Below are positions 1 to 21,034 of a DNA stretch of 21,983 bases, one piece after another. The notes beneath the pieces were generated by a model that saw only the letters and a program-made list of their open reading frames with translations, did no database searches and had not been told where the DNA came from. Within the stretch, counting starts at the first letter, position 1; every line of letters starts with the position of its first letter. The DNA is from a virus. Location: positions 1-21,983 of IMG/VR virus record IMGVR_UViG_3300000227_000032; one strand, written 5' to 3'. Position numbers and translations under genes: made by a program.

Positions 1-3000
1 CGTATTCCGAAGAATTACGTCTCGATATTTTTCGTCTATCGAGCCGAGAACATTCGTTATAGCCGTCCATTCGGATGGTGTTTTCGGACCTACCCGGTTT
101 ATGGACTCAATTACTTTCGTGAGGTTACCTTTAAAGTCGTCCGGGGTACTCCGTAAGGCTCTTTGCAGTGTAGCTCTTACCGGGCCAGCTACCGCGTCGA
201 GTTGAGCTTTAGCCACTTCTGACCGGTCAGTCAGACCCTGATTCGATACTCTTATCATACCAGCTTTTATTAAAGTTTGCAAAAATGGAATGTTAATTCC
301 TGTCTCAAGCATATCAGCTATAAGTTCAGAAATTTCCGCATCCGGGTTGGGTGGGATATCTTTCCCGTCAGTCCGTGTTGTTTTGAATTTGTAGAACACC
401 GACCAGGGAGCAATTGCGTTTAGAAAGTGCTTGATTAGTGCCCATGCTGCATAGCCTTTGTCCTCAAATTCGGATTCGGTCATGATCGGTTTATTTGACA
501 GGGTATCTCGGGGAATTTCCCCATTAGCTGCTGTAAGAAGGTCAGCTATAATCTGAAACTGGGGCTGTAGGGACATATCAAACCTATCTCGAATGGGTGT
601 GGTTGTAGCTTTAACCAGGTTAAAGATCGTCTGTCCAAGTGTGGCATTACGTGATTCAAGCAATTCTCTAGTGGCCCGTTTAAATATAGCTGTTTGTTCA
701 TCATGAGGTATCACGAAGTAAGCGGACTTACCCCGTCTTGAGATACCTATGGGAATGATGAAACCCCGGTCTTTATCGTGCTTTGGAACTCTATCCCAGA
801 AATCCCGCCAGTCATCCCCAAGTAGCATCGAGTAAACATATTGAGTCATAGCTGACCAGAAGCCCATATTCATGGACGCGGCCAACATTCGTTTGGTCAT
901 TACTCCGCCCGATTTTAAAGCCAGGTTATAATCCCTATAGAGGGCCTGCATACCGGGGTTAAAGAACATGTAAACAGAGTTGATCAAGGGAGTTAGGGAA
1001 CCCTTGTTAAGAAAGTTTGGCGAACCAGATTCCCGAACGAGCATGTTATATTCCGCTTTTGTAAGAACCCCCTGCTGGAGGAAAGGTTTGTAATATCTTG
1101 CAGCAGCACGCTTCGGTAGATACTCAATCTGCCTGCCTATTGATTTAACTTTGCTGGTTGCCGCGTGCCAAGCCTTACCGGGAGTTCCTTCGATGATGTA
1201 ATCTGCGAGCAGATTACCAATAAGGGGAATAGCCCTTATTTCCCGGGAAGCTTTAATGGGCTTCTTGTCCCTTTGGAAGCTGGATAGGATTCTCTGATAA
1301 GGTTCAATCACTCCGCCATCTTCCCCTGCATACCTGGATTGATAACTGTAGGTTGACATTGGTATGCCTTCCTGCCAGAGATCGATTATCTCTTTTTCAA
1401 GGGCTTTTGCTGTCTGGGGGTTGCGGGATAGAACTTCGCTGAGAACTGAAACATAAGATCGAAACATCTTATAGGTGGGTCTCAAGATTTCCCGGGTTTT
1501 CATTGGGTTGAAGGCATTCACTAGAAGGTTAAAACCATCTCGAAGTAGATTCGCAGTTTGAAAAGCAGGTTGGAAGGTTGTGTATAGATCGCGGAAGTAT
1601 TCGCTTTTGGAAGATAGTAGTTTTAAGAATTCGCTAGTTTGGGTTTTCAGGCCAATCTCGATACCATCTACCATAACCGAAGGAACGACCCAGGCTTCTT
1701 CTTTACCCTGATCTCTGAAGATAACCAGGGTGTCCTCGTTCTGGGAGTTGGGGTTTTCCCAATTTCCACCGATGCGTTTAGCTTTTCGTTTGAATTCCTC
1801 GGGAAGTTTCCTGACTATGTTACGTTTAACGTCATTGGTATGAGCCATGAACAGCAGATTCAGGCCATGTTCAATGGTGGAAGTTATGGGATTTGTGGTA
1901 TCCCGGAGAGTTCCCCACATTTCCTTGAGAGGCCGAGGCGCTCGTTTATACATTTCTCCATGGTCTTTTATGGATTGAACAACAGCATAATAGACGTAGT
2001 TCTTGTTTTTCCGCATAGCGTCTGCCAAAGAATCAGTAACAAGGCCGGATTTTATAACCGGCTCAACTATGTGCTTCTGCCAGGCATCTTCAAACTTGTT
2101 CATAAAATCATCCAACTGGGGTCCTATGTCTTTGTATATACTGGCTCTTAGCTGTTCTTTAGCAGTCTTCTGGTCAATGTCATAGGTTCCCTTGAACAGC
2201 GGAACGTTAGCTACCATGGTCTCCATCTTTCCAGTATCGTTGTTGTAAACCTGATATGGGATTGACTTCTGGGTTTCACCAGCAGCAATACGTTTAAGCA
2301 TGGCATAGTCTCCCATAATCCGAAGGGCTCGATCAGGTTCAAAGCCTTTCTTCTTCATGAAGTCAACCATGGGGTCTATGTATCCTTCCATTTGGGTTAC
2401 AAGAGACTGAGCGATAGCGCTGAGATTCTGCCACTGCTCAATCTTCTCCCTACTTTCGTTATAAGCATTTCTGCCTTTGGCTTTATCAATAATATCAAGA
2501 ACTGGATAGAACTTGGATATAAACTGGCCACCAATAAAGCGTTTAGCCCATGTTCCAAAAGCTCCGGGGGAAGACCAGATTCTCCGGATAACAGAATCAT
2601 CGGCTTTTTCCATGCGGGCAAATTTTTCTTCATCAGCTTTTTTAATCCGAGTCAAACGATCTTCTAATTTCTGATCGTCTGAGTCATAAACTTCGAAAGA
2701 TCGATCAAAGATTTCCTTGGCGACAGGATTAGAAGCCAGGTAAGCATCAAAGAGTTCGGAAGCCTTCGGGGCTAAGAAATCAGTCATGTTAATTTTTTGA
2801 CCTTCAACTTCTATCTCAAGACCATTGATCTTGGCTGAGAAGAAGTTAGCATAAAGCTCTTCAGGGGTGTGACTGTCGTAGCCGTTTTTAAATATGGCGC
2901 TGAAATCCGCAGGCTTGTAGAATTGGGCGTTATACATTGCCTGGGTGACCATTTCCATTTCTTCCTGAATCTGGGGCAGATACCAGGCACCCTTTTCTTC

Positions 3001-5991
3001 GTAGGCTTGAACCAGATACTGCTTATAGAATCCTTTGGCGGCCTGCTGGATAAAATCTTTACGAGCCTGACCAGTAAGGCCGGCAGCTCTGGCATGTTTT
3101 CTGGCTTCTTTCCGGGCATAGATATTAGCTCTTCTGGTAAATTGCTGGTCAAATCCTCTAAGGCCGGCATCTTCCATCAGCTTATCCCAGTTATCCTGAA
3201 TCATTCTCTTAAATTTGTTATCTTTGGGATAGTGTTGTTCCAGGAAATCCACATACTTCTGCTGCTCTTTAAGAGCTTTGGCATAAGCCGAATCACGGGC
3301 GGGGTCTTGTTTCAAAATGAAATTTTGAGAAGAAAAATACTGTCTAGCTAATTTTCCAAAGAGGCTATTATTATTAACCCTCATGGTGTCCATGCCCGGA
3401 ATAACAGTCGTGCCAGCCATCAAGCTGAGGATGTGGCCAATTTCATGAGCAATAACTTTTTGAGCCATCCCGGGGTATCTGTTTATCATCCAATCCATTC
3501 GAATGTATTTTGGATTACCTGTGATTTTATCAAAGACTACAGCAGCCAGGGATTTCTTTTTGCTCTTGGTTACTAACGCATTGAAAAAGCCGCTAGCGGC
3601 TTCCAGTATTTCCCGGCTGACCCGGATAAGTTTTGAAGGGGTGGGGGCTCCATCTGAGGGCATACCAAAACGTCCAGCGATACCCGTTTCACTTGGTTCC
3701 ATGATATCCTTAGGTGAAACCGGTATAGTCTTCCCATCTTCGAACTCGACCACGTAACTTCCATTTTCGTTAATATTGAGAAGTTTACCAAACGCCATGT
3801 TTTCCGCCGAAGATTCAGGGACACCTTTCCGGCCATACTTAACCCGGACAGCTACAGTGTCCCCGGGTTGTGGGTTGTAGGAGGTGTCAAATTCTTCAGG
3901 TTGGGTTGTTTCAGGCTGATCGATCTGAGGTTTTTCCAAGTCGGGGAATGCAGCGGCTTCAAACTCCGTATCGCCAGTATCTTCTTCGGGGATAATCTCC
4001 ATTGCCCGGCCACTGATCGGGCGCATGTTAACAGGACGACCTTCGTTGTCAATGGGCGGAAATTTCACATTGCCAAATTCCCCATCGTTGGCTGCCCAAC
4101 TCGCTTCAGAAGTATATTCAATACCGTCATAACCCAGTTTTCTGAGAAGGATATTCAGGGGGTGAACCATTCGGTGTCTCTGCCAGGTTTTCACGGTTTC
4201 TTCAATGAGCTTGGTTTGCTCATCTACGGTCATATTTGCCAGTGCCGGCACAGGGCCAAAAGGTATCTGCTCAAGAACATCCTGAACCTGATATTCCCGG
4301 CTTTCAGTAAAACCGGTCAGTTTTCGGGTAGCCTGATCTGCCAAGCCCATAAGGTTTTTGGCCAGACGGAACAGCCGGTTGGGTTGGGATTCTCGGGTAA
4401 CAGTCAGGGGTCTGACCGGGGGTTTCACGGGGGTAACGCCAGAAGAGCCTTCTATAACTGATCTGTTTCCAGTCGCAGCTACTTTGTCACCAAAAGCATA
4501 CATTCCCGTAGCCACACCAGTTCCACGACCACTGGTCATTCTCGCCGCACTCCCCGGCATCAGGGGGAAAGTAAATTCCGAATACTCGTTATCTCTCCCG
4601 ACCCTCCACCAACGCTTGCCTTCGTCCACTTCTTCAATCGTGTTCGGGTTACGACGAGCTTCGATATCTTCAACCCGCATACGCTTGGGAGTCTTCCGGA
4701 ATTCCATATCTGATTCGGGGGTAGCAGAGGGGGGCTCATTGTGGAATTCGTCGTCAAAAACAACTTCTTTGCGTTGGGCTTTTTCACTGTTAACCCGGGT
4801 ATTTTTAAGATCGGTGGTTTTGATCATTCCAGTCTCAATATCGCCGGTATCTTCTGTTTTTTCTTTGACTTTCTGAGCAACATCTCGAAGGTCGATTCTT
4901 GATTCGGGGTTAATTACAATAAATCCCTCGGGAATATCCTCTTCTTTTACGGTCTGACCAGTTTCTTCAGCTTCCCGAAGCATAAGATCAAACTTCTCAG
5001 CACTGATCTTTTCTGATTCAACCTGCTTTGTTTCCTGAATATCTGCTATTTTCTGAAAAGCTGGCTGCATGAGTTTCAAACCTCCGCCTATAAACGGGGT
5101 CGCTATGGCTGTTTGAACAGCAACTTCGCCTATCCTCCGGCCAACCGGTGTTTCCAAGTCGCCGGATTGGAAGACATAATCCAAGCCTATATCAGCTATT
5201 TCAGTGGCAATTTCACTTGGAATTTCCGTAGCCATCATGGCGGCTATATTGGGCATACCCTTAGTGAACCCCCCGAGATACATTCCTGTATATTCTCCGA
5301 GAAATTCTGTTCCGGCGCCTAAACCGCCCTTCAAAGCTGAGCCTACGAAACTTCCGCCCTGCTCATAGTTCTCTCCAGCTACATCTGAGCCTTTTATAGC
5401 TGATAATATCGCCGGAGCCCCCACAGCCACGGTAGCCCATGGGTTTGTTCCCGCAACAGCAGCTCCACCCAGGGCTGCCCCAACAGCTCCAAGGTTCTGG
5501 CCCACCGAAGTTGCCGCTCCAAGAATTTGGCGGTTCATGCCTTGGACAACTGGAGCATCATACTCCGTCCAGGTTTTCATAGCCTGGTAAGGTTCAGGGA
5601 GTCCCAGAAGCTGCAAACCTCTGGTAAGAGAACTGGCTGTATTGAGAGCGGTCTGGGAAGGTATTTTCGTCAGAGTAGCTCCCAAGCCTTCGTCAACCCC
5701 AAGCATTTCTGAAAAAGCCTTAGTCGCTTGTCCAACGGGTTGTTTGTTAGCTTTTGCTACCTTTCGGGCATATTCCCGAATTTGAGGAGTTTTAAAAAGA
5801 ACATCCACGTTCTCTTTGGATACGGGCTGTTCGAGTATATCCAGATAATTGGGGATGAGATCACGCAAGAGAGCATCAACTTTCGCAGGATCTGATGCGT
5901 AGGAGTTGACTATTTCGTCTCTTTCTTTGGGATCCAGAGAATTCCATTCAGGAACTATCTGACTGAAGAAGGATTCCAGCTGTTTACTCAC
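1..5991 (-). CDS. Giant polyvalent ejection protein with zincin motif and LPD38-like region (3' end outside window)
   Basis: One uninterrupted minus-strand frame of 1997 codons begins at a GTG (5991-5989) and is still open at base 1, so the C-terminus is missing. GAGG lies 7 bases before the GTG and the upstream gene ends 13 bases away. Residues 1-150 are helical. Residues 156-250 are Gly/Ala-rich and hydrophobic, as in ejection proteins that cross the envelope. Residues 478-650 include GTGVATGMYAF and LGYDGIEYTSE, which resemble parts of phage ADP-ribosyltransferase-like domains. Residues 706-766 look like a small SH3/KOW beta-barrel. HEIGH at residues 849-853 is a zincin-type metalloprotease motif; I did not find the third zinc ligand. 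Residues ~1140-1900 resemble the large polyvalent protein domain LPD38, with FQPAFQTANLLRDGF (~1473) and a KGSLTPLINSVYMFFNPG stretch (~1663). Its place after two ejection-type genes matches P22 gene 16 or the T7/N4 giant virion proteins. It is probably injected with the DNA. Domain names are from memory of motifs; virion role is inferred. Confidence 0.85.
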   Translation of the reverse strand, partial: MSKQLESFFSQIVPEWNSLDPKERDEIVNSYASDPAKVDALLRDLIPNYLDILEQPVSKENVDVLFKTPQIREYARKVAKANKQPVGQATKAFSEMLGVDEGLGATLTKIPSQTALNTASSLTRGLQLLGLPEPYQAMKTWTEYDAPVVQGMNRQILGAATSVGQNLGAVGAALGGAAVAGTNPWATVAVGAPAILSAIKGSDVAGENYEQGGSFVGSALKGGLGAGTEFLGEYTGMYLGGFTKGMPNIAAMMATEIPSEIATEIADIGLDYVFQSGDLETPVGRRIGEVAVQTAIATPFIGGGLKLMQPAFQKIADIQETKQVESEKISAEKFDLMLREAEETGQTVKEEDIPEGFIVINPESRIDLRDVAQKVKEKTEDTGDIETGMIKTTDLKNTRVNSEKAQRKEVVFDDEFHNEPPSATPESDMEFRKTPKRMRVEDIEARRNPNTIEEVDEGKRWWRVGRDNEYSEFTFPLMPGSAARMTSGRGTGVATGMYAFGDKVAATGNRSVIEGSSGVTPVKPPVRPLTVTRESQPNRLFRLAKNLMGLADQATRKLTGFTESREYQVQDVLEQIPFGPVPALANMTVDEQTKLIEETVKTWQRHRMVHPLNILLRKLGYDGIEYTSEASWAANDGEFGNVKFPPIDNEGRPVNMRPISGRAMEIIPEEDTGDTEFEAAAFPDLEKPQIDQPETTQPEEFDTSYNPQPGDTVAVRVKYGRKGVPESSAENMAFGKLLNINENGSYVVEFEDGKTIPVSPKDIMEPSETGIAGRFGMPSDGAPTPSKLIRVSREILEAASGFFNALVTKSKKKSLAAVVFDKITGNPKYIRMDWMINRYPGMAQKVIAHEIGHILSLMAGTTVIPGMDTMRVNNNSLFGKLARQYFSSQNFILKQDPARDSAYAKALKEQQKYVDFLEQHYPKDNKFKRMIQDNWDKLMEDAGLRGFDQQFTRRANIYARKEARKHARAAGLTGQARKDFIQQAAKGFYKQYLVQAYEEKGAWYLPQIQEEMEMVTQAMYNAQFYKPADFSAIFKNGYDSHTPEELYANFFSAKINGLEIEVEGQKINMTDFLAPKASELFDAYLASNPVAKEIFDRSFEVYDSDDQKLEDRLTRIKKADEEKFARMEKADDSVIRRIWSSPGAFGTWAKRFIGGQFISKFYPVLDIIDKAKGRNAYNESREKIEQWQNLSAIAQSLVTQMEGYIDPMVDFMKKKGFEPDRALRIMGDYAMLKRIAAGETQKSIPYQVYNNDTGKMETMVANVPLFKGTYDIDQKTAKEQLRASIYKDIGPQLDDFMNKFEDAWQKHIVEPVIKSGLVTDSLADAMRKNKNYVYYAVVQSIKDHGEMYKRAPRPLKEMWGTLRDTTNPITSTIEHGLNLLFMAHTNDVKRNIVRKLPEEFKRKAKRIGGNWENPNSQNEDTLVIFRDQGKEEAWVVPSVMVDGIEIGLKTQTSEFLKLLSSKSEYFRDLYTTFQPAFQTANLLRDGFNLLVNAFNPMKTREILRPTYKMFRSYVSVLSEVLSRNPQTAKALEKEIIDLWQEGIPMSTYSYQSRYAGEDGGVIEPYQRILSSFQRDKKPIKASREIRAIPLIGNLLADYIIEGTPGKAWHAATSKVKSIGRQIEYLPKRAAARYYKPFLQQGVLTKAEYNMLVRESGSPNFLNKGSLTPLINSVYMFFNPGMQALYRDYNLALKSGGVMTKRMLAASMNMGFWSAMTQYVYSMLLGDDWRDFWDRVPKHDKDRGFIIPIGISRRGKSAYFVIPHDEQTAIFKRATRELLESRNATLGQTIFNLVKATTTPIRDRFDMSLQPQFQIIADLLTAANGEIPRDTLSNKPIMTESEFEDKGYAAWALIKHFLNAIAPWSVFYKFKTTRTDGKDIPPNPDAEISELIADMLETGINIPFLQTLIKAGMIRVSNQGLTDRSEVAKAQLDAVAGPVRATLQRALRSTPDDFKGNLTKVIESINRVGPKTPSEWTAITNVLGSIDEKYRDVILRNT

Positions 5992-6004
5992 GATTAAACC
6001 TCAA

Positions 6005-7259: not shown

Positions 7260-8249
7260 TTAACCTCCTAAACCGGGTATATTGCTGAGTCCATATATAA
7301 AAGGCATACCTATATTGCGAGTATAGAGGTTAGACATATTAGACAGAAGGGCTGGATTTCTGGCGGGAGTAAAAGCTCCCATACCATAAAGCTGGAGCCC
7401 GGTGTTAATCAGTGTGTTCATGGGGTTAGGTATCTGAGCTTTGGAAATCCCGGCATTCATTATATTCTGACCCTGAGCAATAGTCCCTTGAGCCATATTT
7501 CCGCCAACCCCCATCTGAACATCAGCAATATTATTACCCAGGTTATTAAACATATTAGCCCGATTAATCGCAGCCTGGTTATACAAATCCGCGATAGACG
7601 AACCAACATTTAGCTGGTTTCCAGCGAGAACCTGGCCGGCACCCATCTCATTCGAGCCAAGGGATTGACCAGCCTGAAGACCCATTGAAGAAAGATTCAT
7701 CAGATCATTAATCTGTCTTTGGCGTTCTTCAGCACCCAACTGACCCACATTCTTGCTGCGGATGGCCGCTCCAACGCCCGAATCACGAAGACCTAAGGCG
7801 TTTAAGTGTGCGGTTAATTGTTCGTCCAGCTGGTTTAACTGCCAATTATAAAGAGGACTGGCAGTAACATCATAAGCTACGTCTGAAGGTAGGCCAAGAG
7901 CGGAAGATAAAACCGGGACGGCACCTAAAGCTTGGGTAGTGGCGTCTGTAAAAGGTTTTCGAGCAAGTCGGGCTTTATTAAACCAGTCAGTAAAGGTCTT
8001 TTCACTGGTTGTTCCAGCATCACGGAGAGCTTCGATTGCAGCCTGATGAGCCGCATCATACTCCGTCATACCTTTCTTCATATACTCCCGGTAGGTCGAA
8101 ATAGCTTTATCGCCGGCCTGCTGAATAATTTGCATGGCGGCCTGGTTGGCCTGATTAGCCAAACCCAAGGCTTTATCAATCTCCTTACGGGCTTTATTAC
8201 CGGAAAAGTCAGTTCCCACTATGCTATCTACAAGATCAAATAGTCCCAT
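7260..8249 (-). CDS. DNA transfer / pilot-type ejection protein
   Basis: The protein has 329 residues. It starts with MGLFD and continues with an Ala/Gln-rich helical region (residues 17-80). Around residues 124-160 is a block with ASPLYNWQL, an NALG and an SGVGA that I recognise from phage DNA transfer proteins, where an SPxYxWxL motif is followed by a Gly/Asn-rich tail. Residues 190-275 are rich in Gly, Asn, Gln and Ala, typical of flexible injected proteins. The start is supported by AAGGAG six bases before the ATG, and the upstream gene stops 30 bases away. The next gene starts within 2 bases of its stop. It probably lies inside the capsid and moves into the host ahead of the genome, like P22 gp7. 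The exact family was not confirmed. Confidence 0.7.
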   Translation of the reverse strand: MGLFDLVDSIVGTDFSGNKARKEIDKALGLANQANQAAMQIIQQAGDKAISTYREYMKKGMTEYDAAHQAAIEALRDAGTTSEKTFTDWFNKARLARKPFTDATTQALGAVPVLSSALGLPSDVAYDVTASPLYNWQLNQLDEQLTAHLNALGLRDSGVGAAIRSKNVGQLGAEERQRQINDLMNLSSMGLQAGQSLGSNEMGAGQVLAGNQLNVGSSIADLYNQAAINRANMFNNLGNNIADVQMGVGGNMAQGTIAQGQNIMNAGISKAQIPNPMNTLINTGLQLYGMGAFTPARNPALLSNMSNLYTRNIGMPFIYGLSNIPGLGG

Positions 8250-9404: not shown

Positions 9405-10066
9405 TATTTAATCCTCCATTCGTAGCCAGTAAAATATAAAACAGCAGAAGAGTCCGGCGGAAGCTCCTGCTCACTTTCGCCTTCAATACGAAAAAGACCG
9501 TCACTGCAGATAACGGAATATCCGGTGCTTTGGTTATCTATTGTAATTTCCCGCCCGGTAACGCATAAATCCACACTTATCACAAAATAACCATTGGGTA
9601 TGATAATCTGGAATATGTCAAAATTACCGGATATGGTTGAGAAAGGCGTATCCAAGAGCTTAATTCGACCCAGAATAGTTTTATTCGTGAGAATTTGTTC
9701 GTCGCTTTCACCGACCAACGGACTAAATCGCCCATGGGCTACCGGTTCAGAATCAAGATTCACCCCATGCTTCAGATTAATTACAACATTTTTCAAAGCG
9801 TCAATAGTTTTATTCGTTATCTCAACCGTATCTCCTGCGCCAATGACGGGAGATTCCGTGCCGTGAACTATGTTGGCGGCAATATGCCGGGACAAATCCC
9901 GCTCCAGCTCATCAATAGTCGGGGTGTTAATACTTCCAAGTCCCCCGTTCGAATCATCGAGCAGGGCTTTCAAACCAATTACATATTCATAAAGGCGCTG
10001 AAACCACTGATGTAGTTCAGCACCTTTCATCCCCGGAGTTGGAGGTCTCAGATCAACTTTATTCAT
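9404..10066 (-). CDS. Fibre-like structural protein with NKTI repeats
   Basis: This 220-residue protein has a helical N-terminus (residues 1-70) with an LHQWFQRLYEYV segment. Two short related segments ending in TNKTI follow (residues ~70-90 and ~110-132). Such 'ltNKT' repeats are common in phage tail fibres and collar-associated proteins. The C-terminal ~80 residues are beta-rich and end in FTGYEWRIK. The ATG overlaps the stop of the upstream gene (ATGA). AAGGA lies only 2 bases before it, too close for a normal site, so translation probably depends on coupling to the upstream gene. The product is likely a small trimeric fibre or a connector between fibre components; nothing more specific can be supported. 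Confidence 0.65.
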   Translation of the reverse strand: MNKVDLRPPTPGMKGAELHQWFQRLYEYVIGLKALLDDSNGGLGSINTPTIDELERDLSRHIAANIVHGTESPVIGAGDTVEITNKTIDALKNVVINLKHGVNLDSEPVAHGRFSPLVGESDEQILTNKTILGRIKLLDTPFSTISGNFDIFQIIIPNGYFVISVDLCVTGREITIDNQSTGYSVICSDGLFRIEGESEQELPPDSSAVLYFTGYEWRIK

Positions 10067-11691
10067 TGTCCTTGAACCTTCACATCCTCTTCCAGGGCTA
10101 TTATGGATATAGGCATACTACAGGTTGAAACGATTTGATATTGCCGGGTTCTATAACACCCGAGGCCATGCAGGTGTTTTATAATTGCATAGTCCCCCTT
10201 TTGACCCAGGTCAACTTCTCTCCATTTCTTCCATTCGCTTTCGCCGTCATTTCTCCAGCGTATTAGGAGCTTCCTTTCCGACGTCCTGGTTGCCGAGATA
10301 TTCCGAAATTGATAGACTGCTACAAGGTTTCGGTTTCCATCAATAGTGGCGGGGGGAGACACTGGATTCCCATTTTCAGTCCATCCGACGAATTCATATT
10401 CAGCGCCCGGGGTCTGAACAAAAACCAGAGCATCTCCAAAATTTCCCATAAAACCGGATACGCCGTTAACCGTAGCAGACCCGGCTCCAACCGGATTTAC
10501 AGAAACATTTATGGTGTATTCGATTGCATCGAACAAGGCATAGTAGATCGCATCAGTTACAATCTGGAGTGGAGCTGTTGCGGGGTGTCCGTTATGCTGC
10601 CACCCGGAGAAAATGAAATGTGAATTCGAAACTGCAACCGGAATCAAGGGAGTCCCCGCCGGCCCGGTTACCGAAGAAACCCCATTAATTGTGGCAATCC
10701 CGCCTTCTGGTGGTGAAGGTAGAACTGACACAGTATATTCTTTCAGAGTGAACCTGGCTTCATAAATCCCATCAGAAGTAGCTTGAGAAGGGGCAACCAC
10801 TAGTGAGCCGTCTTTATACCAACCATCAAAGAGATAGTCCAAACCGGGGGATGCTACAAAAGTTAGAGAGGTTCCCGCATCCACCTGAATATTAGTCGAA
10901 CCATTTACTGTGGCTGTCCCGGCTCCCGAAGGTGAAACCCGGGTTTGAATATTAAAATTATCCAGGATGTTCGTGACGTGGAAAGTTGCCTGTTGAAGGA
11001 CTATTACATTAATCTGAGGCGGGGATGAGTTATTAATCGAAGAAGTATTAAACGGAGGTATGACTTCCGTAAGTCCATAAATACCATGGGGAAGTTGGTT
11101 AAATAAGGCCTCCCCCGCCGCATTGGTTGTGGCGCTGAATGTTTGATTATCCGATAGTCTTGTTGCTGTGAAAGTAACATTTTCATGCGGGATATTACCA
11201 GATAATCTCTGCTGGGTCTTAGTAACCAACAGGCTCCCCCACGATCTGATATCCATCTCCAAATCGACAATGGCGGAAATATTACTAATTCCTCCTGGTT
11301 GATAAGTCACATATTGTTCTTCATCCCCATTGTATCCGCGGGTTATGGTGAAGTCTCCATCGATGTCTTCATAAATCTGGGTGCCTGCTGGCCAAGTGTA
11401 AATATGGCTATTAACAACCGAACCTCCGGGACCATTAACAGTTATGGTTACCGTAACCCGAATGTCGTGCTGGAGGGTGACGACAGACTCAGGCGGGTAG
11501 GCATCCGCTTCGAACTGTACAATTAGTTGAACCGGTTTTATTATAGGGTGGGTAGCTGTATTATTAAATCCATAGCTCTCCGGGCAAATTGCCTGAGAAT
11601 TAATAACATAGTCAGCTGGATCAGGATATTCCACATAAGGGCTGACTGCTGAGCTCTCAACTCGAAGTAGTGCTCTCCATCGATTAGCCAT
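10063..11691 (-). CDS. Modular Ig/InlB-repeat surface protein with gp10-like C-terminal module
   Basis: From the ATG at 11691 (GAGGG 8 bases upstream) the protein has 542 residues. A TTG at 11697, overlapping the previous stop, is in frame but only 2 bases from the same GAGGG, so I chose the ATG. The N-terminus has RWRALLRVE and VEYPDP; residues ~15-150 are beta-rich. Residues ~151-230 resemble a SpaA/Cna-B prealbumin-like domain. Three InlB-B/Flg_new-type repeats follow at ~246-316, 318-388 and 390-462, each with Gly-Ala/Gly-Thr-Ala-Thr-Val/Ile-Asn-Gly near its start and GW in the middle. Residues ~471-538 (LLIRWRNDG, GDYAIIKHLHGLG, then CYRTRQ) resemble the last ~65 residues of P22 gp10. 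It probably sits on the tail as a fibre or adhesin anchored by that module. Confidence is high for a structural protein, moderate for each domain name. Confidence 0.8.
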   Translation of the reverse strand: MANRWRALLRVESSAVSPYVEYPDPADYVINSQAICPESYGFNNTATHPIIKPVQLIVQFEADAYPPESVVTLQHDIRVTVTITVNGPGGSVVNSHIYTWPAGTQIYEDIDGDFTITRGYNGDEEQYVTYQPGGISNISAIVDLEMDIRSWGSLLVTKTQQRLSGNIPHENVTFTATRLSDNQTFSATTNAAGEALFNQLPHGIYGLTEVIPPFNTSSINNSSPPQINVIVLQQATFHVTNILDNFNIQTRVSPSGAGTATVNGSTNIQVDAGTSLTFVASPGLDYLFDGWYKDGSLVVAPSQATSDGIYEARFTLKEYTVSVLPSPPEGGIATINGVSSVTGPAGTPLIPVAVSNSHFIFSGWQHNGHPATAPLQIVTDAIYYALFDAIEYTINVSVNPVGAGSATVNGVSGFMGNFGDALVFVQTPGAEYEFVGWTENGNPVSPPATIDGNRNLVAVYQFRNISATRTSERKLLIRWRNDGESEWKKWREVDLGQKGDYAIIKHLHGLGCYRTRQYQIVSTCSMPISIIALEEDVKVQGQ

Positions 11692-11693
11692 AC

Positions 11694-12896
11694 TCAATAC
11701 CCTCGTTTCAAGCGGAAGGTCAAATTCTGAGGGAATTTTCGCTTCAAAGTTCCGTAATCAATATTTGCAGTAGTAATTTCCAGGCGGATGACATTGCCTG
11801 CATCAGTATTTTCAGCGTAATTCGCCACATAAACCTGACCATCCTGACCACCGACTATCTGCTGTCCCCAGCTTTTCGCGTTAACACAGGATACACCCGG
11901 GAACCGGTTATATTTATCCTGTTCGGTGTTCCATGACAGCCACTTATACCAAAGGTTGGTAACGGTGTCGAAAACGAACGTAACATCGTCCTTTGTGAAT
12001 GTAACCACGTAAAACCGGTTGAACATCGCAAAAGCCTCTGATCTATCCACGTTGAATCCCTGAAGTTGATCATTTATAGGCCGGGATATAACTTCGGCAG
12101 TTCTACCGTTCATTCGAACTATTTCTTTATTTGGCGTTACAAAAACATAGGAGTTAGCTATTTTGGCCAGACAGCGGTTATTCACAATCCCTATTTCGCC
12201 GACAGATCCATTGAGAAGCTGGAATGGAATTTCCGAATTGCCAGTAGCGTAATGGGATTCTGTTGAATCCCTGCCAAGAATAAAGAGTTCTTCCCAGCCG
12301 GATGACAAGGTAATGATATTATCTGGTTGGGAAGAGGCGGTTAAGAACAGTGGATTCCAAGTTGGGGGCTGAGATCGATTATCGGTCGGGCCGTATGTGG
12401 CGGTAATGAAGTTCTGAGTATTCTGAAGAGAAGCAATCGTGTAGCCTTTGAGGTAAGTCAAGGCAGTTACACTCTGGTTCACTTGAGTAATTCTTTGAGC
12501 TTTCTGAGAAACATCCCCACCCCACCAGAGCATGTGGCGGCCAGCACACATGGTAACCCCGTATTCATCCGCGCTGAAAAATACGTATCCATTGTAGGGC
12601 AGACTATCACAAGAATTTACGGGGGTTATATCAATCCAATTACGAACCTTTGTAATTTTAACAAGGATCCTACGGTTAACACAGGCTATCAGATAGCCTC
12701 TAGTTTCCCACCAGAAAAGATAGACCTTACCAGTCTGACCGGTAGAATAGGCCTCCGAAAGTCCTGGTCTTAGCCGGAAAAAAGCCTCGTTACCTGAAAA
12801 TTCAACATAAGCATTAATAACGTCAATTGAGCCTTGAGATATTTCAGACTTATCCCCGCCAGGAAAAATTGGAGAAATCAGGTTTAGTCGTGGCAT
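11694..12896 (-). CDS. P22 gp10-like tail accessory / packaged DNA stabilisation protein
   Basis: At 400 residues, the protein resembles P22 gp10, which binds below the portal-gp4 ring, helps retain packaged DNA and carries the tailspikes. It starts with short motifs typical of the family (PIFPGGDKSE, INAYVE, LRPGL). WEELFILGRDSTE (~residues 203-215) and repeated Gly- and Trp-rich strands fit the beta-propeller-like body. It ends at FRLKRGY, where P22 gp10 (about 472 residues, from memory) continues for about 65 more residues into a beta module. That module appears to be present at the end of the next gene. AGGTG lies 5 bases before the ATG; the fibre-like gene upstream ends 7 bases before it. 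The family call is solid; the missing C-terminus is discussed as a finding. Confidence 0.82.
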   Translation of the reverse strand: MPRLNLISPIFPGGDKSEISQGSIDVINAYVEFSGNEAFFRLRPGLSEAYSTGQTGKVYLFWWETRGYLIACVNRRILVKITKVRNWIDITPVNSCDSLPYNGYVFFSADEYGVTMCAGRHMLWWGGDVSQKAQRITQVNQSVTALTYLKGYTIASLQNTQNFITATYGPTDNRSQPPTWNPLFLTASSQPDNIITLSSGWEELFILGRDSTESHYATGNSEIPFQLLNGSVGEIGIVNNRCLAKIANSYVFVTPNKEIVRMNGRTAEVISRPINDQLQGFNVDRSEAFAMFNRFYVVTFTKDDVTFVFDTVTNLWYKWLSWNTEQDKYNRFPGVSCVNAKSWGQQIVGGQDGQVYVANYAENTDAGNVIRLEITTANIDYGTLKRKFPQNLTFRLKRGY

Positions 12897-12903
12897 AAAT
12901 CAC

Positions 12904-14013
12904 CTATTTCAGAATGACAACTTTTTGAATTGCTACGTTGCCACCACAAGTTAAATTGTAGCTTCCGTTAACTCCGTTGATAGTTATAGCTCCATCATAG
13001 TTTCTATCAGCATTTTCTCCACCTCGGTTAATAATTCTGTAATAACCCGCAGTCAGGAAAGCGGTAAAATCAAGAACCACCATACACGCGGCAGCTCCAA
13101 AAAATGAAAAGGTAATATGGATTAACAGCGGGGTAGTATCTGATGTAAAGGTAACAGTAGCGGAATTTCCCGAAAAAATTTCCTCACGGACGAGAGCTGA
13201 AGCAGCAGGAGCTTCGTATTCAAACTGATTCAAGGTTCCATTGTATTTCAATCTATCACCATTGTTGGGAGTCGAAGAAGTGACCGGAATACCCTGAATC
13301 TTCTTTGCGTCAACATCCACCAGTTCCAGGTTGTCTTCAGTCCCGTTAACCGCCGGGACTTTCCCTGCTTTCCCTATATAGTCCGTATCAATGGTATCAG
13401 TCAGATCGAGAAACGAACGATCGGGGATAGCATCAGTTTTACTTTTCAAAACAAGTTTCAATTCCCCCGCTACATCTTCGACAACTGGAATCCGACCTTC
13501 TTTACCAGTAAAAGAAGTATCATAAACATCCGTCAAGTCTTTGTAGGCCTTCGTGTTAACTACATTGGCAAGATTGGATATCGATTGTTCCAGGGTATTT
13601 ATTTCCTGGTTGAGTTGGCCCTTATTAATTGCATCTTCCGGGTTAACCCCATCATCGAGGTTGATGATTTTGAAGTTCTGCATATCCAAATCACCGTCAA
13701 TCTCAATATTGCCACTGTCTTCAAACGAAGGCTTGAACTCCAGGTTATCAGCTTCGTAAAGGATATCTCCATTCTCATCAGCTGAATCTCGAATTACTAT
13801 TCGGTATAGCCCGTTGGCATAAGCTTTCAACCGGCCAAAGCTGTCCAAGATAGCTGGGTTGGCATGTTCCTGGGACTGATCTCGGCTAGTCCACACATTC
13901 GACAAAATAGCGGAACCAGCCTGATAAAACCAGACTACCCCACCATTCAAAGGCTGGTCAGTTTCGGGATGGCGGATACCATCCATAAGAAATTCAATTT
14001 GTTTTGCTGGCAT
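12904..14013 (-). CDS. Tail fibre-like protein
   Basis: The 369-residue protein begins with a common fibre N-terminal module (residues 20-95): GGVVWFYQAG, ANPAILDSFGR, then NGLYRIVIRDS. This binds fibres to virions in several phages. Residues 108-133 (DLDMQNFKIINL and PEDAINKGQL) match the short repeat used in many tail fibres. Two copies of a DLTDxxDTxxxGKxGxxP unit lie at ~159-175 and ~203-220. Residues 240-267 (IPVTSSTPNNGDRLKYNG) are another fibre module. The last ~100 residues are beta-rich and could form a tip or trimerisation domain. GAGG lies 6 bases before the ATG and shares bases with the upstream stop (TGAGG). No depolymerase or lyase motif is visible. Host recognition is the likely job, but it could also be an adaptor. 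Confidence 0.75.
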   Translation of the reverse strand: MPAKQIEFLMDGIRHPETDQPLNGGVVWFYQAGSAILSNVWTSRDQSQEHANPAILDSFGRLKAYANGLYRIVIRDSADENGDILYEADNLEFKPSFEDSGNIEIDGDLDMQNFKIINLDDGVNPEDAINKGQLNQEINTLEQSISNLANVVNTKAYKDLTDVYDTSFTGKEGRIPVVEDVAGELKLVLKSKTDAIPDRSFLDLTDTIDTDYIGKAGKVPAVNGTEDNLELVDVDAKKIQGIPVTSSTPNNGDRLKYNGTLNQFEYEAPAASALVREEIFSGNSATVTFTSDTTPLLIHITFSFFGAAACMVVLDFTAFLTAGYYRIINRGGENADRNYDGAITINGVNGSYNLTCGGNVAIQKVVILK

Positions 14014-14021
14014 GACTTACC

Positions 14022-14840
14022 TCAAAAAATTGGTTCAGTAGTTTCGCAATCAGTATATTCTACTTGCTTGCGGCTAATAAGGGCAAGTCTGACTTGAGCT
14101 TTCCCTTCGAGTCTTCGGATTTTGATATCTTCTTGTCCATATTCTTCGGCCATCCTGGCAGCAAGTTCATAGATCAGGTATGAATAGAGACTGCTGGGAA
14201 TATCAAGATTGTCATCAATAACGGTAATATCTTCGAGAATTCGGAGACGGTCATAAATAACAGTGTAAGGCTTGTCAGGTAGATAATAAAAGGTTAGGAG
14301 CTGACGGTCATAATCAAACCGGGCTTTTTCCGGTCGGTCAACTTCCCACTTAAAGGGGATTTTCATTTCCTTAAACCGGTTAATAACCGGGACCGGGAAA
14401 TCCGTATCATCCTCGCGTATCGTGATAGACTCTATGCTGGCAGTTCCAGCAGGAGTAGCAATCTCTCCACCCCGGATATAATCAACGTCGAGAGCCCAGG
14501 CAACGGGAGAACTTTCAACAGCGTCACTCCCGTACCAGAAATCCCGCCATCCAAGGCCTATCCCCGGCTCGTTGTTCGGTGAGGAGGTATGAGTTTTCAG
14601 ACAATAATAAATGGATCCATTATGGGAAACAACGCTCGAAACTGGCAGTTGAATTTCAACTCGGTCTATCGACCAGAGTTTCTTTTCAAAGGCTTCCAGC
14701 TCTTTTGAGATCATGTTTAAGTGATCAGCAGAGGACTGTAGCATTTCATTATCCATTTGCTCCCCAGCTTCGAGTATGCCAGCCATTCGACAGGCCTTTG
14801 TCAGAATGGGATTTCGAACCAGTTGAAAATTAACCGTCAT
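14022..14840 (-). CDS. P22 gp4-like head-tail connector with inserted carbohydrate-binding-like module
   Basis: The 272-residue protein has the start of a gp4-type connector (ILTKACRMAGILEAG) and its C-terminal helical region (LYSYLIYELAARMAEEYGQ). P22 gp4 forms the ring under the portal. Between them is a longer insertion than the basic fold needs: residues ~66-103 (VSSVVSHNGSIYYCL, HTSS, EPG, then WRDFWYG) resemble a CBM5/12-type chitin-binding or phage surface module. AGGAG lies 6 bases before the ATG and abuts the terminator T-tract. The gene stops 8 bases before the fibre-like gene. Its place after the capsid genes and ahead of gp10 supports the connector role. The insertion could bind glycan or simply be a structural loop. 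Confidence 0.78.
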   Translation of the reverse strand: MTVNFQLVRNPILTKACRMAGILEAGEQMDNEMLQSSADHLNMISKELEAFEKKLWSIDRVEIQLPVSSVVSHNGSIYYCLKTHTSSPNNEPGIGLGWRDFWYGSDAVESSPVAWALDVDYIRGGEIATPAGTASIESITIREDDTDFPVPVINRFKEMKIPFKWEVDRPEKARFDYDRQLLTFYYLPDKPYTVIYDRLRILEDITVIDDNLDIPSSLYSYLIYELAARMAEEYGQEDIKIRRLEGKAQVRLALISRKQVEYTDCETTEPIF

Positions 14841-15331: not shown

Positions 15332-16366
15332 TTATTGGGCGTTGGCCAGGTCGGTTATGGTGAAGTATGCACCACAGCTGCCGTAATCAACTTTAGGGCC
15401 GACTGAGGTGAATTGGAACTTGGTCTTTTTAATCCCAGCGATGAATTTTCTGGCAATACCACGTTCTTCATCATAGCCAAAAGATTTATCAACGGTAACA
15501 GGTTTCTGACCCCAAGCCCAGATAGATGAACCGGCACCCATGAAAATACCCTTGCAATAGAAAACGGTTCCGTTGGAAGCAATCGGGATATTTTCGTGTT
15601 CTTTAACAACTACATTGTCGATAATAGCAACAGCACCGCTGAAAATGGGGTTATCGTTCGAACGAGCAAGAGCTTCTTTAAGATAGCCTTGGTATTCCGC
15701 GTTGTTCTTAATATCGTACAACGCATAAGGATGCACGTAAAGGATATACCAGCCCTTACCCAGAGCTTTGATTTTCTGGAATGGGTAAGTGGTTCTGGCA
15801 TTGAGAGAAGTAGCGAAGTTCGGGAAGCCGGCACTGGCCATCGCTGACAGTCTGCGAATATAGGCCGGGGTCAGTTTGTCGGCGTTGGTAAGAGCAGCTG
15901 CGTTAGCTTTGCCTCCGCCATAGTAAACTGCGCTTGGAGCGTCAAGCATCTTTTCAAACCACAGATCGTCCATAACTTCTGAAGATACCTGATTAAGGCC
16001 AATGGCATTTTCTTCTGATACGGAAAACCAGGGTCTGTGCTCATCCAGACCACATTTGTATCGGAAGCCCAACTTGTATTCTTCAAGAGTTACCTGATCG
16101 GTGAAATACTTGATTTTGCCTTCCTTGCCTTCAAGAGACAAGCCAGACGAACCAGTAATTACATCAGCTTCCTGGCGGGGAAAAATGGTGAAGGTGATTG
16201 CATCGCCCTCGCCTTTTTTAATATTTGATTTTTCATAGATCGCATAGTCAGAAGACGGACCCATGAGAGACCCAATAACCATAGCTTTCCGAACTTCTCG
16301 AAAGCGCATTTCATCCCACATTTTCTTGACCACGGGGTCATTGGTACTTACAGCAAGTGAACCCAT
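15332..16366 (-). CDS. Major capsid protein, N4-gp56/DUF4043 type
   Basis: The protein has 344 residues, an HK97-fold family recognised from its pattern: a KGEGDAITFTIFPRQ strand (~52-66), LSLEGKEGKI (~76-85), then TDQVTLEEYKLGFRYKCGLDEHR (E-loop/spine region) and EVMDDLWFEKML. These match the N4-gp56/DUF4043 coat family rather than P22 gp5. ILYVHPYALYDIK in the middle is another conserved type of strand-helix. AGGAG lies 9 bases before the ATG, formed partly by the scaffold's final codons; the scaffold stops 3 bases before it. A small decoration gene and a terminator follow. No delta domain or N-terminal protease site is obvious, consistent with use of a separate scaffold. The assignment is strong. 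Confidence 0.9.
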   Translation of the reverse strand: MGSLAVSTNDPVVKKMWDEMRFREVRKAMVIGSLMGPSSDYAIYEKSNIKKGEGDAITFTIFPRQEADVITGSSGLSLEGKEGKIKYFTDQVTLEEYKLGFRYKCGLDEHRPWFSVSEENAIGLNQVSSEVMDDLWFEKMLDAPSAVYYGGGKANAAALTNADKLTPAYIRRLSAMASAGFPNFATSLNARTTYPFQKIKALGKGWYILYVHPYALYDIKNNAEYQGYLKEALARSNDNPIFSGAVAIIDNVVVKEHENIPIASNGTVFYCKGIFMGAGSSIWAWGQKPVTVDKSFGYDEERGIARKFIAGIKKTKFQFTSVGPKVDYGSCGAYFTITDLANAQ

Positions 16367-17281: not shown

Positions 17282-19357
17282 TTAAACTGGCATCCTGCCA
17301 GCTTTAGCCAAGTCCGCGGCGAGTTTCTTTTCTTCCATTTCCTGAATCCGCGCCTGATTTTCCTGCATAATCCGCAGATACTTGGATTTGTTCGGCAAAG
17401 AACTAAGTTCCATCAGAAGTTCCGGAGGCACGGGAAGACCATTTCTTGCAGCTTCAAGCCACATTGAGAATTGGGCTTCCTTGGCAGTAACGGAGAAATT
17501 CTGTTCGCCTATTTGTATATCATACTCAGATAAATCCCTTGTGGAAAGTAGTCTGAGAATATTTTGCATAATTACCTGGTCCTGATCGGGGGTTCTCTGC
17601 GCAGGGATTTCCTGCCCGGCGATATGGAGCGGGGAGGTTCTATGCGGGTCTGAGGCCTCCGCGAGAACTATTCTGGCAATTCTTTCTGGAGTATAAAACT
17701 TCTGAACCAGTTTGAAAACTTTTCTGAACATTACCTGCTTGGACAGAGAGAAGTTATCAAAAATTCTCTCATTGCCCATGAGGCTGCCTCGAGCTTCCTG
17801 CATACGGGCACTGCCGGATTCATAGCCGGTCTTGGATTGTCCATGCATAGCCGGGCTGATATTGGTAACTCCGTCTAATATGCTTAGATTCATTGTGTGC
17901 ATGGTGAACAATTCCACGGGGAATGGAGGCATTTCAGCAGGAATGGGGGGTCTGGTTGTATCGGCTATCTTGGCGTGCCAACCGGAACCACCGGATTCAT
18001 TGATAAACTTATTTTTATGCTTGGGGTCGTCGAAGGTATCATTATCGTAAAACCAACCCCGGCCAAGGATTCGGTTAACCAAGTCTATCGACTGGCTCGA
18101 TCTCTTGTTAAGCTCCCTCTGAGGGTCTTTCATTGATTCAACTTTACCAAAGAAATCCCCGTCATCGAACTTATACGCATAGACCGGGATAAGTGAAAAG
18201 CCCTCGTAAGGCCTGACAGGATAAAAATCCCGGATAAACTCTCCACCTATGGTTACAGTAACTCTGATTCGGCTCCGAGGAAAGGACATTCTCTGGAGGC
18301 CGGGGATGTTTTTTGCCTTGGCATAGACTTGTTTGTCAACCTCCATGCTAAAACTGCCATCAGAACTCATAATCCACAAAGCTTCACGAAATTCCTTAAT
18401 TTCATGCTCAATAATTCGAATTCGTTTGTGGAGCTTATCAACTATTTCTACATCAGAGCTGTAACCCTCGATGGCTGCCATCGTTGCTGAACCTTTATCC
18501 GTTACAAGTTTAATTGGGTCGGATATGTTAGTTGAACTGGCAGACATTAAATGTTCTTCAATCTTTTTATACTGGTCCGGGTAGGTTACTTTTGCTTCCC
18601 CAAATGACAACCATTTGGCTTTGTGGCAGTGAGTCGCATCACTGGCGTCCAGTTTTGTATGGGCCCCAAAGTAGCCATCCTGCCAGGGGAATCTTTCAAT
18701 GAGAATATCGCCGAGAGGGTTGCGCTCCTGAGTCATACCAAGGTGGAAAAGGCCTCTGCCGGGGATAATCTCATCTTCAAAAATTTGAATTTCTTCGGTT
18801 ATAAGATTATTTTGTTTGCCTATCCGTATTAGAACCGCGGTAACAATATCAGCTAAACCTTCATCGGAGCCTTCGACTGGAAAAGCCCGAGGGTCTAAGC
18901 GGTTCTGTCTGGCCAAACCGGATAGAACGTCAATCTTACTTTGGGTGTAGTTGAGAACCTGGGTAGCTCTTTTCTTGGCTTTGAGGTGATTGATATCTTC
19001 CCGGTTCCACTGATCACCTTTCACAAAGCGGACGGATTCTTTACCCTTCTCCCGGGAGTCGTGCTCTATGGCACAGGCTTCTTTGAACAGAGCTATGGCT
19101 TCATCAGCCAGCTCTTTTTCATTTCTCTTCGGGGGTTTTTCCGGTAAAGCATCTTCTTCGGTTAGAGGAAAAACCTCATGAGTGTGGGCGGACATGGGGG
19201 TAAGGATTATAGCCATTGAACCGTCTGGATTCGGGGCTATAGTAACCGGATGTGTGTGGTTGTTATCCACAGAGGTAGTTAATTCAGACACCCCTTCAGC
19301 AATGTAAAAGATGTGCCAATGTCCATCAGCTTCAGTTGTCCGGTATAATTTTCCCAT
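17282..19357 (-). CDS. Portal protein with N-terminal histidine-rich extension
   Basis: This 691-residue P22-type portal contains FVKGDQW (111-117), a landmark of these portals, and VLNYTQSKIDVLSGL (~134-148). The long C-terminal part is helical, as in the portal stem and crown/barrel. It forms the dodecameric DNA gate and binds terminase and gp4. The first ~65 residues are unlike a usual portal: three HxH pairs occur at residues 13/15, 34/36 and 58/60. An in-frame TAG four codons upstream fixes the ATG as the earliest start; only a weak GGTAG lies before it. The gene starts 42 bases after terminase large. The extension could bind metal or contact internal proteins. Confidence 0.9.
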   Translation of the reverse strand: MGKLYRTTEADGHWHIFYIAEGVSELTTSVDNNHTHPVTIAPNPDGSMAIILTPMSAHTHEVFPLTEEDALPEKPPKRNEKELADEAIALFKEACAIEHDSREKGKESVRFVKGDQWNREDINHLKAKKRATQVLNYTQSKIDVLSGLARQNRLDPRAFPVEGSDEGLADIVTAVLIRIGKQNNLITEEIQIFEDEIIPGRGLFHLGMTQERNPLGDILIERFPWQDGYFGAHTKLDASDATHCHKAKWLSFGEAKVTYPDQYKKIEEHLMSASSTNISDPIKLVTDKGSATMAAIEGYSSDVEIVDKLHKRIRIIEHEIKEFREALWIMSSDGSFSMEVDKQVYAKAKNIPGLQRMSFPRSRIRVTVTIGGEFIRDFYPVRPYEGFSLIPVYAYKFDDGDFFGKVESMKDPQRELNKRSSQSIDLVNRILGRGWFYDNDTFDDPKHKNKFINESGGSGWHAKIADTTRPPIPAEMPPFPVELFTMHTMNLSILDGVTNISPAMHGQSKTGYESGSARMQEARGSLMGNERIFDNFSLSKQVMFRKVFKLVQKFYTPERIARIVLAEASDPHRTSPLHIAGQEIPAQRTPDQDQVIMQNILRLLSTRDLSEYDIQIGEQNFSVTAKEAQFSMWLEAARNGLPVPPELLMELSSLPNKSKYLRIMQENQARIQEMEEKKLAADLAKAGRMPV

Positions 19358-19399: not shown

Positions 19400-21034
19400 T
19401 CATACAGTCATCCAAGAATAACGATCATTTGTGTACAGGTCATCATCGTCTGACGAGTATGGGTCTCGGACTCGACGATCAATTTTATCCGAATTTACAC
19501 TCATATAAGATCGACCACGATCGGCCATCGTTACCATGTAGGCGTCAAACAGGTTGGGGCTAAGGATACCTCGGGATTTCATCTTGGACTTTGATTCTAT
19601 TTTGATCTTTCCACTGTCTTCATCGCTGGCATCCCTCTGCATAACAGCTAACTCCTGGCGAAATTTACGGGTAAGCCGGTGAGATGAAGGGATGGAGACA
19701 AGACCTTGTTCGAATTGTTCACGGACAAGCCAGCAAAGTTCATCGCGGAGTCGATTGAACTTTTTCCGGTCATCCCGAGGACGGGTGGAGACGTCGACAC
19801 CTTTAACTTTCCCGGGAAATCGCCTCTTGAGTAGGTCATAAACCCCGGCTCCATTACCGATGATGTCAATATACATGATATCACATTCCCATTCAATGAA
19901 AACCTGAGCGATTTCATCAGCCAGTTCCACAGTATCAAGCCGGGTGAACTCAATAAAGTCCCGAATTTTATGAGCATCCCGAATAAGGCAGGCCGCGGGA
20001 TCTCCACCTTGCCTGGAGGGGTCGACTCCCATAACCCTAAGAGCCTCAGGGCTCGGGGTAATATCCCGGTCGATAGCATTATCAATCCATTCCTGAGGGA
20101 TGAGGGTATTTTCGGACTGCTCTGGGGGAAGACCAAGCACGTTAACTCGGTATTCATAAGAGTTTTCACCATAGATATTTTTGATTTTCTCAATCTGAGA
20201 GATGTCAACATTTTCCGAAAAGCGGGAATCCCAGTGGAGGGTTTTCCAGTATTGGCTGCGGTTGGGGGAAAACTGAGTTTCATAAGCGTAACCGTAGTTT
20301 TTCGTCGGGTTAAAAATCATCAAAATGAAGTTAACCGGCCCAGTGAGAGTGGTTTCAAGTGAAGTCAGGATAGGTTGGGGGACACCATCTGCTTCATCAA
20401 TCCCGATCATCATAAAATCTTCATGGAGACCATCCATATTCTTTGATTGTTGCTCTTCAGTGGAATTCTTCGGAGCCGTTCTTAAGCGAATGAACCAGTT
20501 CTTGCCTTCATCTTCAGGCCTTTCCGGGTCTTTTGAATAAATCTTGTCGGCCTGAATTACTACATTATCCCGGAAAATGAAACAGGGTTCCCCATGTTCA
20601 TCAAGCCGGTTAGCCCACTTGGACATTTCCGAAAGCAGAACGTCACGAAGCTGATCTCTGGATGGCCCGGTAAGGGGAACTTTTGAAGAGTAGAAACAGG
20701 TATGAAACCACCAGCAGCACCATGCCAGAAAAGCATCTTTACCGGTTCCTTTACCGGACATAATAGACAGGCCGACGAGGCCTGCGTAATGTTCTTCTTC
20801 GGGGGTCAGGGGTTGTTTCTTCCACTTCTTCATTTTAGCCGTAACAAGTTTTCCCAGTTCCATAAGGGCTTCAGTCTGTTGGGTTGTCGGCTTAACCCCC
20901 AGGGCTTCTACACAATACCGGAGGGGGTTGACCTGCCATTCGTCGATCAGCTCAACAAACTGATTCTCAATCTGCTGGTTTTCTTCGACTGGTTGCAATT
21001 CCAACGGCTTTGATGATGGAGAGCTTTTTAACAT
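19400..21034 (-). CDS. terL: Terminase large subunit
   Basis: At 544 residues it has both motor and nuclease parts. Walker A is SGKGTGKD (93-100), with Asp where Thr/Ser usually follows the Lys. Walker B is MMIGIDEAD (208-216; D213, E214). The RNase H-like nuclease contains VMGVDPS (D338), IMYIDIIGNG (D390) and PNLFDAYM (D497). It uses ATP to drive DNA into the head through the portal and cuts concatemers. The gene overlaps the terminase small subunit by 68 bases, with no clear Shine-Dalgarno close to the ATG, which suggests translational coupling. The next methionine (58) would remove conserved sequence, so I kept this start. Confidence 0.93.
   Translation of the reverse strand: MLKSSPSSKPLELQPVEENQQIENQFVELIDEWQVNPLRYCVEALGVKPTTQQTEALMELGKLVTAKMKKWKKQPLTPEEEHYAGLVGLSIMSGKGTGKDAFLAWCCWWFHTCFYSSKVPLTGPSRDQLRDVLLSEMSKWANRLDEHGEPCFIFRDNVVIQADKIYSKDPERPEDEGKNWFIRLRTAPKNSTEEQQSKNMDGLHEDFMMIGIDEADGVPQPILTSLETTLTGPVNFILMIFNPTKNYGYAYETQFSPNRSQYWKTLHWDSRFSENVDISQIEKIKNIYGENSYEYRVNVLGLPPEQSENTLIPQEWIDNAIDRDITPSPEALRVMGVDPSRQGGDPAACLIRDAHKIRDFIEFTRLDTVELADEIAQVFIEWECDIMYIDIIGNGAGVYDLLKRRFPGKVKGVDVSTRPRDDRKKFNRLRDELCWLVREQFEQGLVSIPSSHRLTRKFRQELAVMQRDASDEDSGKIKIESKSKMKSRGILSPNLFDAYMVTMADRGRSYMSVNSDKIDRRVRDPYSSDDDDLYTNDRYSWMTV

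Follow-up and report, generated by a model that had tools for sequence, protein, structure and literature searches.

A P22 gp10-type tail hub gene apparently split at its C-terminal turn, with the missing module on a neighbouring adhesin-like protein

The closest described counterparts of the locus reported here are P22 gp10, Sf6 gp8, the Pam1 needle-head protein and the Pan3 stabilization protein (Hc3, phrog_578), which are single chains of 442-472 aa with a propeller-bearing hub fold and a C-terminal module. The hub chain encoded in the window, by which we mean the whole stretch of DNA analyzed (a virus record of the IMG/VR type, 21,983 bases long), belongs to the same sequence family and an intact relative of it likewise has the propeller-bearing fold, but the chain stops at 400 residues and the remainder is found on another protein. 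The nozzles of SU10 and T7 are also hub proteins which show extra domains (nozzle, Ig-like) by insertion (PMC9509320, PMC6702177). While those inserts lie between or in propeller blades 2-3 of a single chain, the site affected in the window is the C-terminal turn. In the SU10 nozzle, the beta-sandwich platform domain, which touches the adaptor, is assembled from the N-terminal and the C-terminal part of the chain (PMC9509320); by homology, the split in the window would cut the counterpart of this domain. No earlier description of a split gp10 or of inserts in its C-terminal turn was found in the literature searched, which was limited in extent.

The minus strand of the window is a P22-like late operon. 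It encodes a terminase (19400-21034), a portal (17282-19357, phrog_156), a capsid protein (15332-16366, PF13252 and phrog_334), a tail-fibre-like protein (12904-14013), the 400-aa gp10/Hc3-like hub protein (11694-12896, phrog_578), an adhesin-like second gene of 542 aa (10063-11691), two unassigned proteins and a DNA-ejection-like protein (7260-8249, phrog_598). The order portal, capsid, hub and ejection protein is that of P22 gp10/Hc3-type genes. The two ORFs singled out by an earlier note on this DNA are present on the minus strand at 12896-11694 and 11697/11691-10063. Elsewhere in the window, a 272-aa protein (14022-14840) had a weak chitin-binding-like match to PF02839 (E 2e-4, below the cut-off) and a match to phrog_12985. 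Positions 1-6000 contain plus-strand ORFs of 80-200 aa, and a PHROG scan of six ORFs in this region gave a sole match at E 0.04.

The 400-aa protein matched the phrog_578 profile ("head closure Hc3", P22 gp10) at E 3.8e-28 over profile positions 40-379 of 486, leaving the last ~107 positions without a match. The structurally characterized Pan3 (9vyg) and Pam1 (7eeq) proteins are gp10 homologues of this core by sequence. A Pfam scan of the 400-aa protein gave no match, PF11134 (Phage_stabilise) included; since PF11134 also missed several intact relatives or gp10-type proteins (the core of locus L129, L111 and L220), this model is narrow. When the gp10 core, the adhesin or the capsid protein of the window was used alone as a query against viral contigs, no relatives were returned, and alignment-based searching was required for relatives to be found. 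The 13 distinct sequences which matched the core best (L151, L247-L249, L253-L255, L257-L261 and L277; E down to 2e-41, ~27% identity to the nearest) all have one intact ORF, 467-499 aa in length. In every one of them a turn of 8-9 residues joins the two halves and is followed directly by the module. The window core aligned to residues 9-396 of the 474 residues of L151 (E 2e-29), and its C-terminus, ...LTFRLKRGY, falls at the position of this turn. Where the strand at the turn reads FRLKRGQGNVAVANPVMTLRWRN in L260, the window has FRLKRGY followed by a stop, and the module, absent from the 400-aa ORF, begins SERKLLIRWRND on the next ORF. As the nearest relatives are intact across the turn, the 400-aa protein is incomplete by their standard, which bears out the earlier claim that the gp10-like protein ends early. 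On this profile and alignment evidence, it is a P22 gp10/Hc3-type tail hub without the last ~70 residues of the family.

An AlphaFold2 model of L151, produced from 38 sequences, had a pLDDT of 86.9 and a pTM of 0.86. When compared over its full length by Foldseek, the model matched P22 gp10 (8eap, TM 0.85) and Pan3 (9vyg, 0.81/0.86), as well as Sf6 (7sg7) and Pam1 (7eeq), with the SU10 and T7 nozzles matched more loosely. In this model the strands at residues 383-395 and 406-413 flank the turn, such that the position of the break is a turn between two beta strands in the C-terminal region.

The gp10 C-terminal module occupies positions 10066-10290 of the minus strand (profile match 10269-10087). 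A first hint came from a search of a phage collection, where five gp10/stabilization proteins were among weak matches (E 0.3-1). Pairwise comparison of the module with each of five gp10s gave E ~1e-6, and BLASTP against residues 402-474 of L151 gave E 2e-9. A profile was built from 269 intact gp10 ends, with the window and L129 left out, and the module matched it at E 2.3e-11 and 44.0 bits, compared with 9.8 bits for the best of 2,000 shuffles and 11.9 bits for the best unrelated ORF among 24,514. In P22 gp10 (8tvr, 472 aa) the corresponding region is the C-terminus. Core and module together tile L151 (9-396 and 402-474), with about five residues over, and no second copy of the module was found within the window. 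The module is diverged (~25% identity) and retains the invariant W, G and R positions of the gp10 family; conserved family positions are kept by both halves. The earlier note had placed the missing gp10 end in the last ~68 residues of the next protein. The homology holds, while the length is nearer to 70-75 residues. By sequence, then, the last ~75 residues of this SpaA/InlB-type protein are the gp10 module which is missing from the hub.

Structure prediction, which the earlier note had proposed as a check, gave a consistent result. Within the model of the 542-aa protein the module (residues ~470-540) was predicted as a block with pLDDT of 71-93, mostly above 80, and contained three strands in gp10-like order. 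The equivalents of gp10 strands 435-440 and 460-473 were unformed in this isolated-chain model, which would fit a need for partner strands supplied by the hub core; we regard this as suggestive only. With respect to distribution, the module was located in gp10 ORFs in the contigs, with the exception of two splits (the window and L129). Among 40 named phage records in which the module was matched at E <= 0.01, all annotated matches with a named function were located in gp10 or its hub equivalent; a few others were labelled "hypothetical protein" or lacked annotation detail. The best matches of the window module are spread across the family, with L260, from the clade of the core, sixth and the rest lower, and the module may either have been acquired separately or go back to the gp10 that gave rise to the core. 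One profile, phrog_19101 (595 positions), matches GTA TIM-barrel (megatron-like) proteins over ~8-516 and the gp10 module over ~522-595, so that in some phage a further kind of protein may bear the module; a source phage for this profile was looked for and not found.

The second ORF encodes 544 aa from a TTG at 11697 or 542 aa from a better ATG at 11691. At the junction the stop of the core is followed by two bases and then this ATG, with a probable ribosome-binding site, GAGGG (11700-11704, minus strand), ahead of it within the last codons of the core; similar sites precede other genes of the operon. At its 3' end the gene overlaps the one that follows in an ATGA. The start codon, the ribosome-binding site and this overlap fit real genes.

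The domains which the earlier note read in the second protein were largely recovered, all on the minus strand. The N-terminal region of ~150 aa (11242-11691) is beta-rich in the model and had no family match, in keeping with its description as novel. It is followed by a SpaA/Cna-B-like domain of prealbumin fold (11047-11193), which matched PF17802 at E 1.9e-4; the score of 21.9 bits lies below the cut-off of 23.1, and membership in the SpaA/Cna-B group, as read from PF17802, is therefore given as probable. Three InlB-type repeats of ~70 aa each (10953-10747, 10746-10531 and 10530-10306) can be aligned to each other and passed the curated cut-off of the divergent InlB repeat PF18998 (E 2.9e-7, 30.8 bits against 23.6), as the note had proposed. 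GC content is uniform over core, cassette and module. The model of the isolated adhesin had a mean pLDDT of 51 and was poor outside the module, which made a fold search with it meaningless. This exact SpaA/InlB cassette was found in no other phage of the searched collections, and the window is thus a single record. The SpaA/InlB part may bind the host surface.

The same turn carries inserts in other gp10s. Our survey covered 318 gp10 ORFs from 327 loci, some of which lie on the same contigs. All 318 have core and module in the same ORF, with 6-495 aa between the two. Inserts of 160-495 aa were observed in this turn in seven other ORFs, all single chains. In L109 (2959-6210) and L120 (2974-6210) the insert is a BD-FAE-type alpha/beta hydrolase (esterase; PF20434, E 1e-15), and in L206 (3299-5683) it is a glycine-rich domain of ~300 aa (PF21722, E 0.002, below the cut-off), reminiscent of glycine-rich phage adhesins. 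The inserts of L111 and L130 (490-495 aa) are paired beta domains, lectin- or SPRY-like by eye, and those of L187 and L220 are other beta domains. These metagenomic gp10s share with the window the insertion point and the presence of inserted enzymes or binding-type domains; they differ from it in that the domains are others and that insert and both halves form one polypeptide, whereas the window has two genes. As judged from these alignments, gp10 hubs have an insertion hotspot in their C-terminal turn, which supports the earlier reading of an insertion into gp10. As separate observations, the gp10 of L189 (78-1865) has an insert with a stretch which looks dockerin-like by eye (GDVDNTGSVVLADATTVLSY) and had no Pfam match, and a second insertion region lies near residue 130 in L087 and L091, as in many gp10s with lengths of 630-1083 aa, where the inserts are repeat or fibre-like domains (phrog_21413, phrog_38233).

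A second split was found in L129 (IMGVR_UViG_3300014202_000110), which has fibre genes of phiKMV/LUZ19 type. Its core ORF (2541-3827) lacks the module and is split at the same place as in the window, and the module ends a downstream fibre-like protein. The core is followed by a complete phrog_4176 tail-fibre gene, which stands between the halves, and a 280-aa ORF combines a match to the phrog_4950 tail fibre at residues 9-190 (gp41 of LUZ19 by tblastn) with the gp10 module at residues 205-277 (E 1e-37 with the profile of intact gp10 ends). The L129 core shares 75-78% identity with intact gp10s, and its position in the tree is remote from that of the window; the two splits therefore represent independent events. 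The cassette differs from that of the window, and the L129 halves are separated by two further gene boundaries. This second, independent split supports the proposal of the earlier note that the gp10 end is supplied in trans. T10 and G6 tracts lie where the split core of L129 ends (3750-4122), and the frame beyond them continues an acidic repeat; they perhaps reflect a sequencing fault, slippage or phase variation. Other candidate splits were rejected: in L144, L088 and L269 part of the core shares the ORF of the module (the frame breaks lie within the core), and in L046, L195, L242, L312 and L326 a contig end cuts off the module or the core.

It is possible, though unlikely, that the split in the window is a sequencing or assembly error and that the virus in truth encodes one gp10 of ~940 aa with the SpaA/InlB cassette in the turn, much as in L111 (983 aa). 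The second frame is already open 63 nt ahead of the stop that ends gp10, single-chain gp10s with inserts of 490-495 aa are known (L111, L130), and the T10 tract at the end of the L129 core ORF is suspicious. However, the gp10 frame in the window stops right after the conserved KRG of the strand, a ribosome-binding site and an ATG lie within five bases, an arrangement which a random frameshift would leave near a stop in ~4% of cases, and long homopolymers are absent at the junction, where a base error is unlikely. A one-base error fusing the frames of the window could not, moreover, explain L129, in which a complete extra gene lies between the halves and the two further boundaries preclude their joining by a single base error. 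Were the junction in the window an error nonetheless, the virus would carry this cassette at the same site within one continuous hub chain.

Somewhat less probable is that the module is a relic, with the hub functioning without its last strands and the adhesin held by other means or not at all. The divergence of the module (~25% identity) would fit this. In opposition to it, the invariant W, G and R persist in the module, whose structure is predicted with good confidence, and the core likewise keeps the partner strands in a lineage that shares only ~27% identity with its nearest relatives, such that both halves have survived a long divergence. We consider it very improbable that programmed frameshifting joins the frames and yields some fused chains of 940 aa beside the 400-aa form: the open frames do overlap by 63 nt, but by eye no slippery heptamer of the XXXYYYZ type was seen in the overlap and a good independent start exists. 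That the module merely resembles a generic WxxDGG or Asp-box-like beta motif, as in sialidases, can be all but dismissed, since the matches of its profile to Asp boxes of sialidases are weak (E 4e-4 at best) and span 20-24 residues, as against 60-75 for gp10, and the function-naming matches in the 40 named phage records were all gp10 or the equivalent gene.

We consider it probable that the turn of gp10 was invaded by an adhesin cassette which then became a separate gene, and that the module now supplies in trans the missing part of the split domain and holds the adhesin on the hub. An adhesin-like cassette (the novel N-terminal region, the SpaA-like domain and three InlB repeats) would have entered the turn between the two strands, and a stop and a new start at this turn would have separated the reading frame into two genes. 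The hub core would thereby have retained the strands before the turn, and the adhesin those after it as its own C-terminus. Core and module would most likely reunite as a split domain during tail assembly, and one adhesin, displayed on the tail exterior near the adaptor, would complete each subunit of the hub (P22 tails have six, and hubs of this family form a hexameric ring between adaptor and tail tip). The homology, the exact fit of the two halves to one another, the intact relatives, the insertion hotspot and the second split are observed, while the docking of the module on the hub, the stoichiometry, the place on the tail and the binding of a host surface are proposed here.

In a wider sense, the turn of gp10 may be a general display site of short-tailed phages, with the module a natural split-domain tag that locks separate adhesins or fibres onto the hub and with splits having occurred on more than one occasion (in the window and in L129); in our judgement the case for this is about evenly balanced. 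If it is true, the conserved hub which seals the DNA channel can also gain host-binding parts, in the order of insertions into a tolerant turn followed by separate genes attached via a complementing half-domain, and this would provide a testable route by which phages acquire receptor-binding proteins. It would also explain truncated gp10 genes, and a C-terminal module would mark a protein as belonging to the virion surface even where the rest of it is unrecognisable. A natural two-part lock on the phage tail may in addition serve for display.
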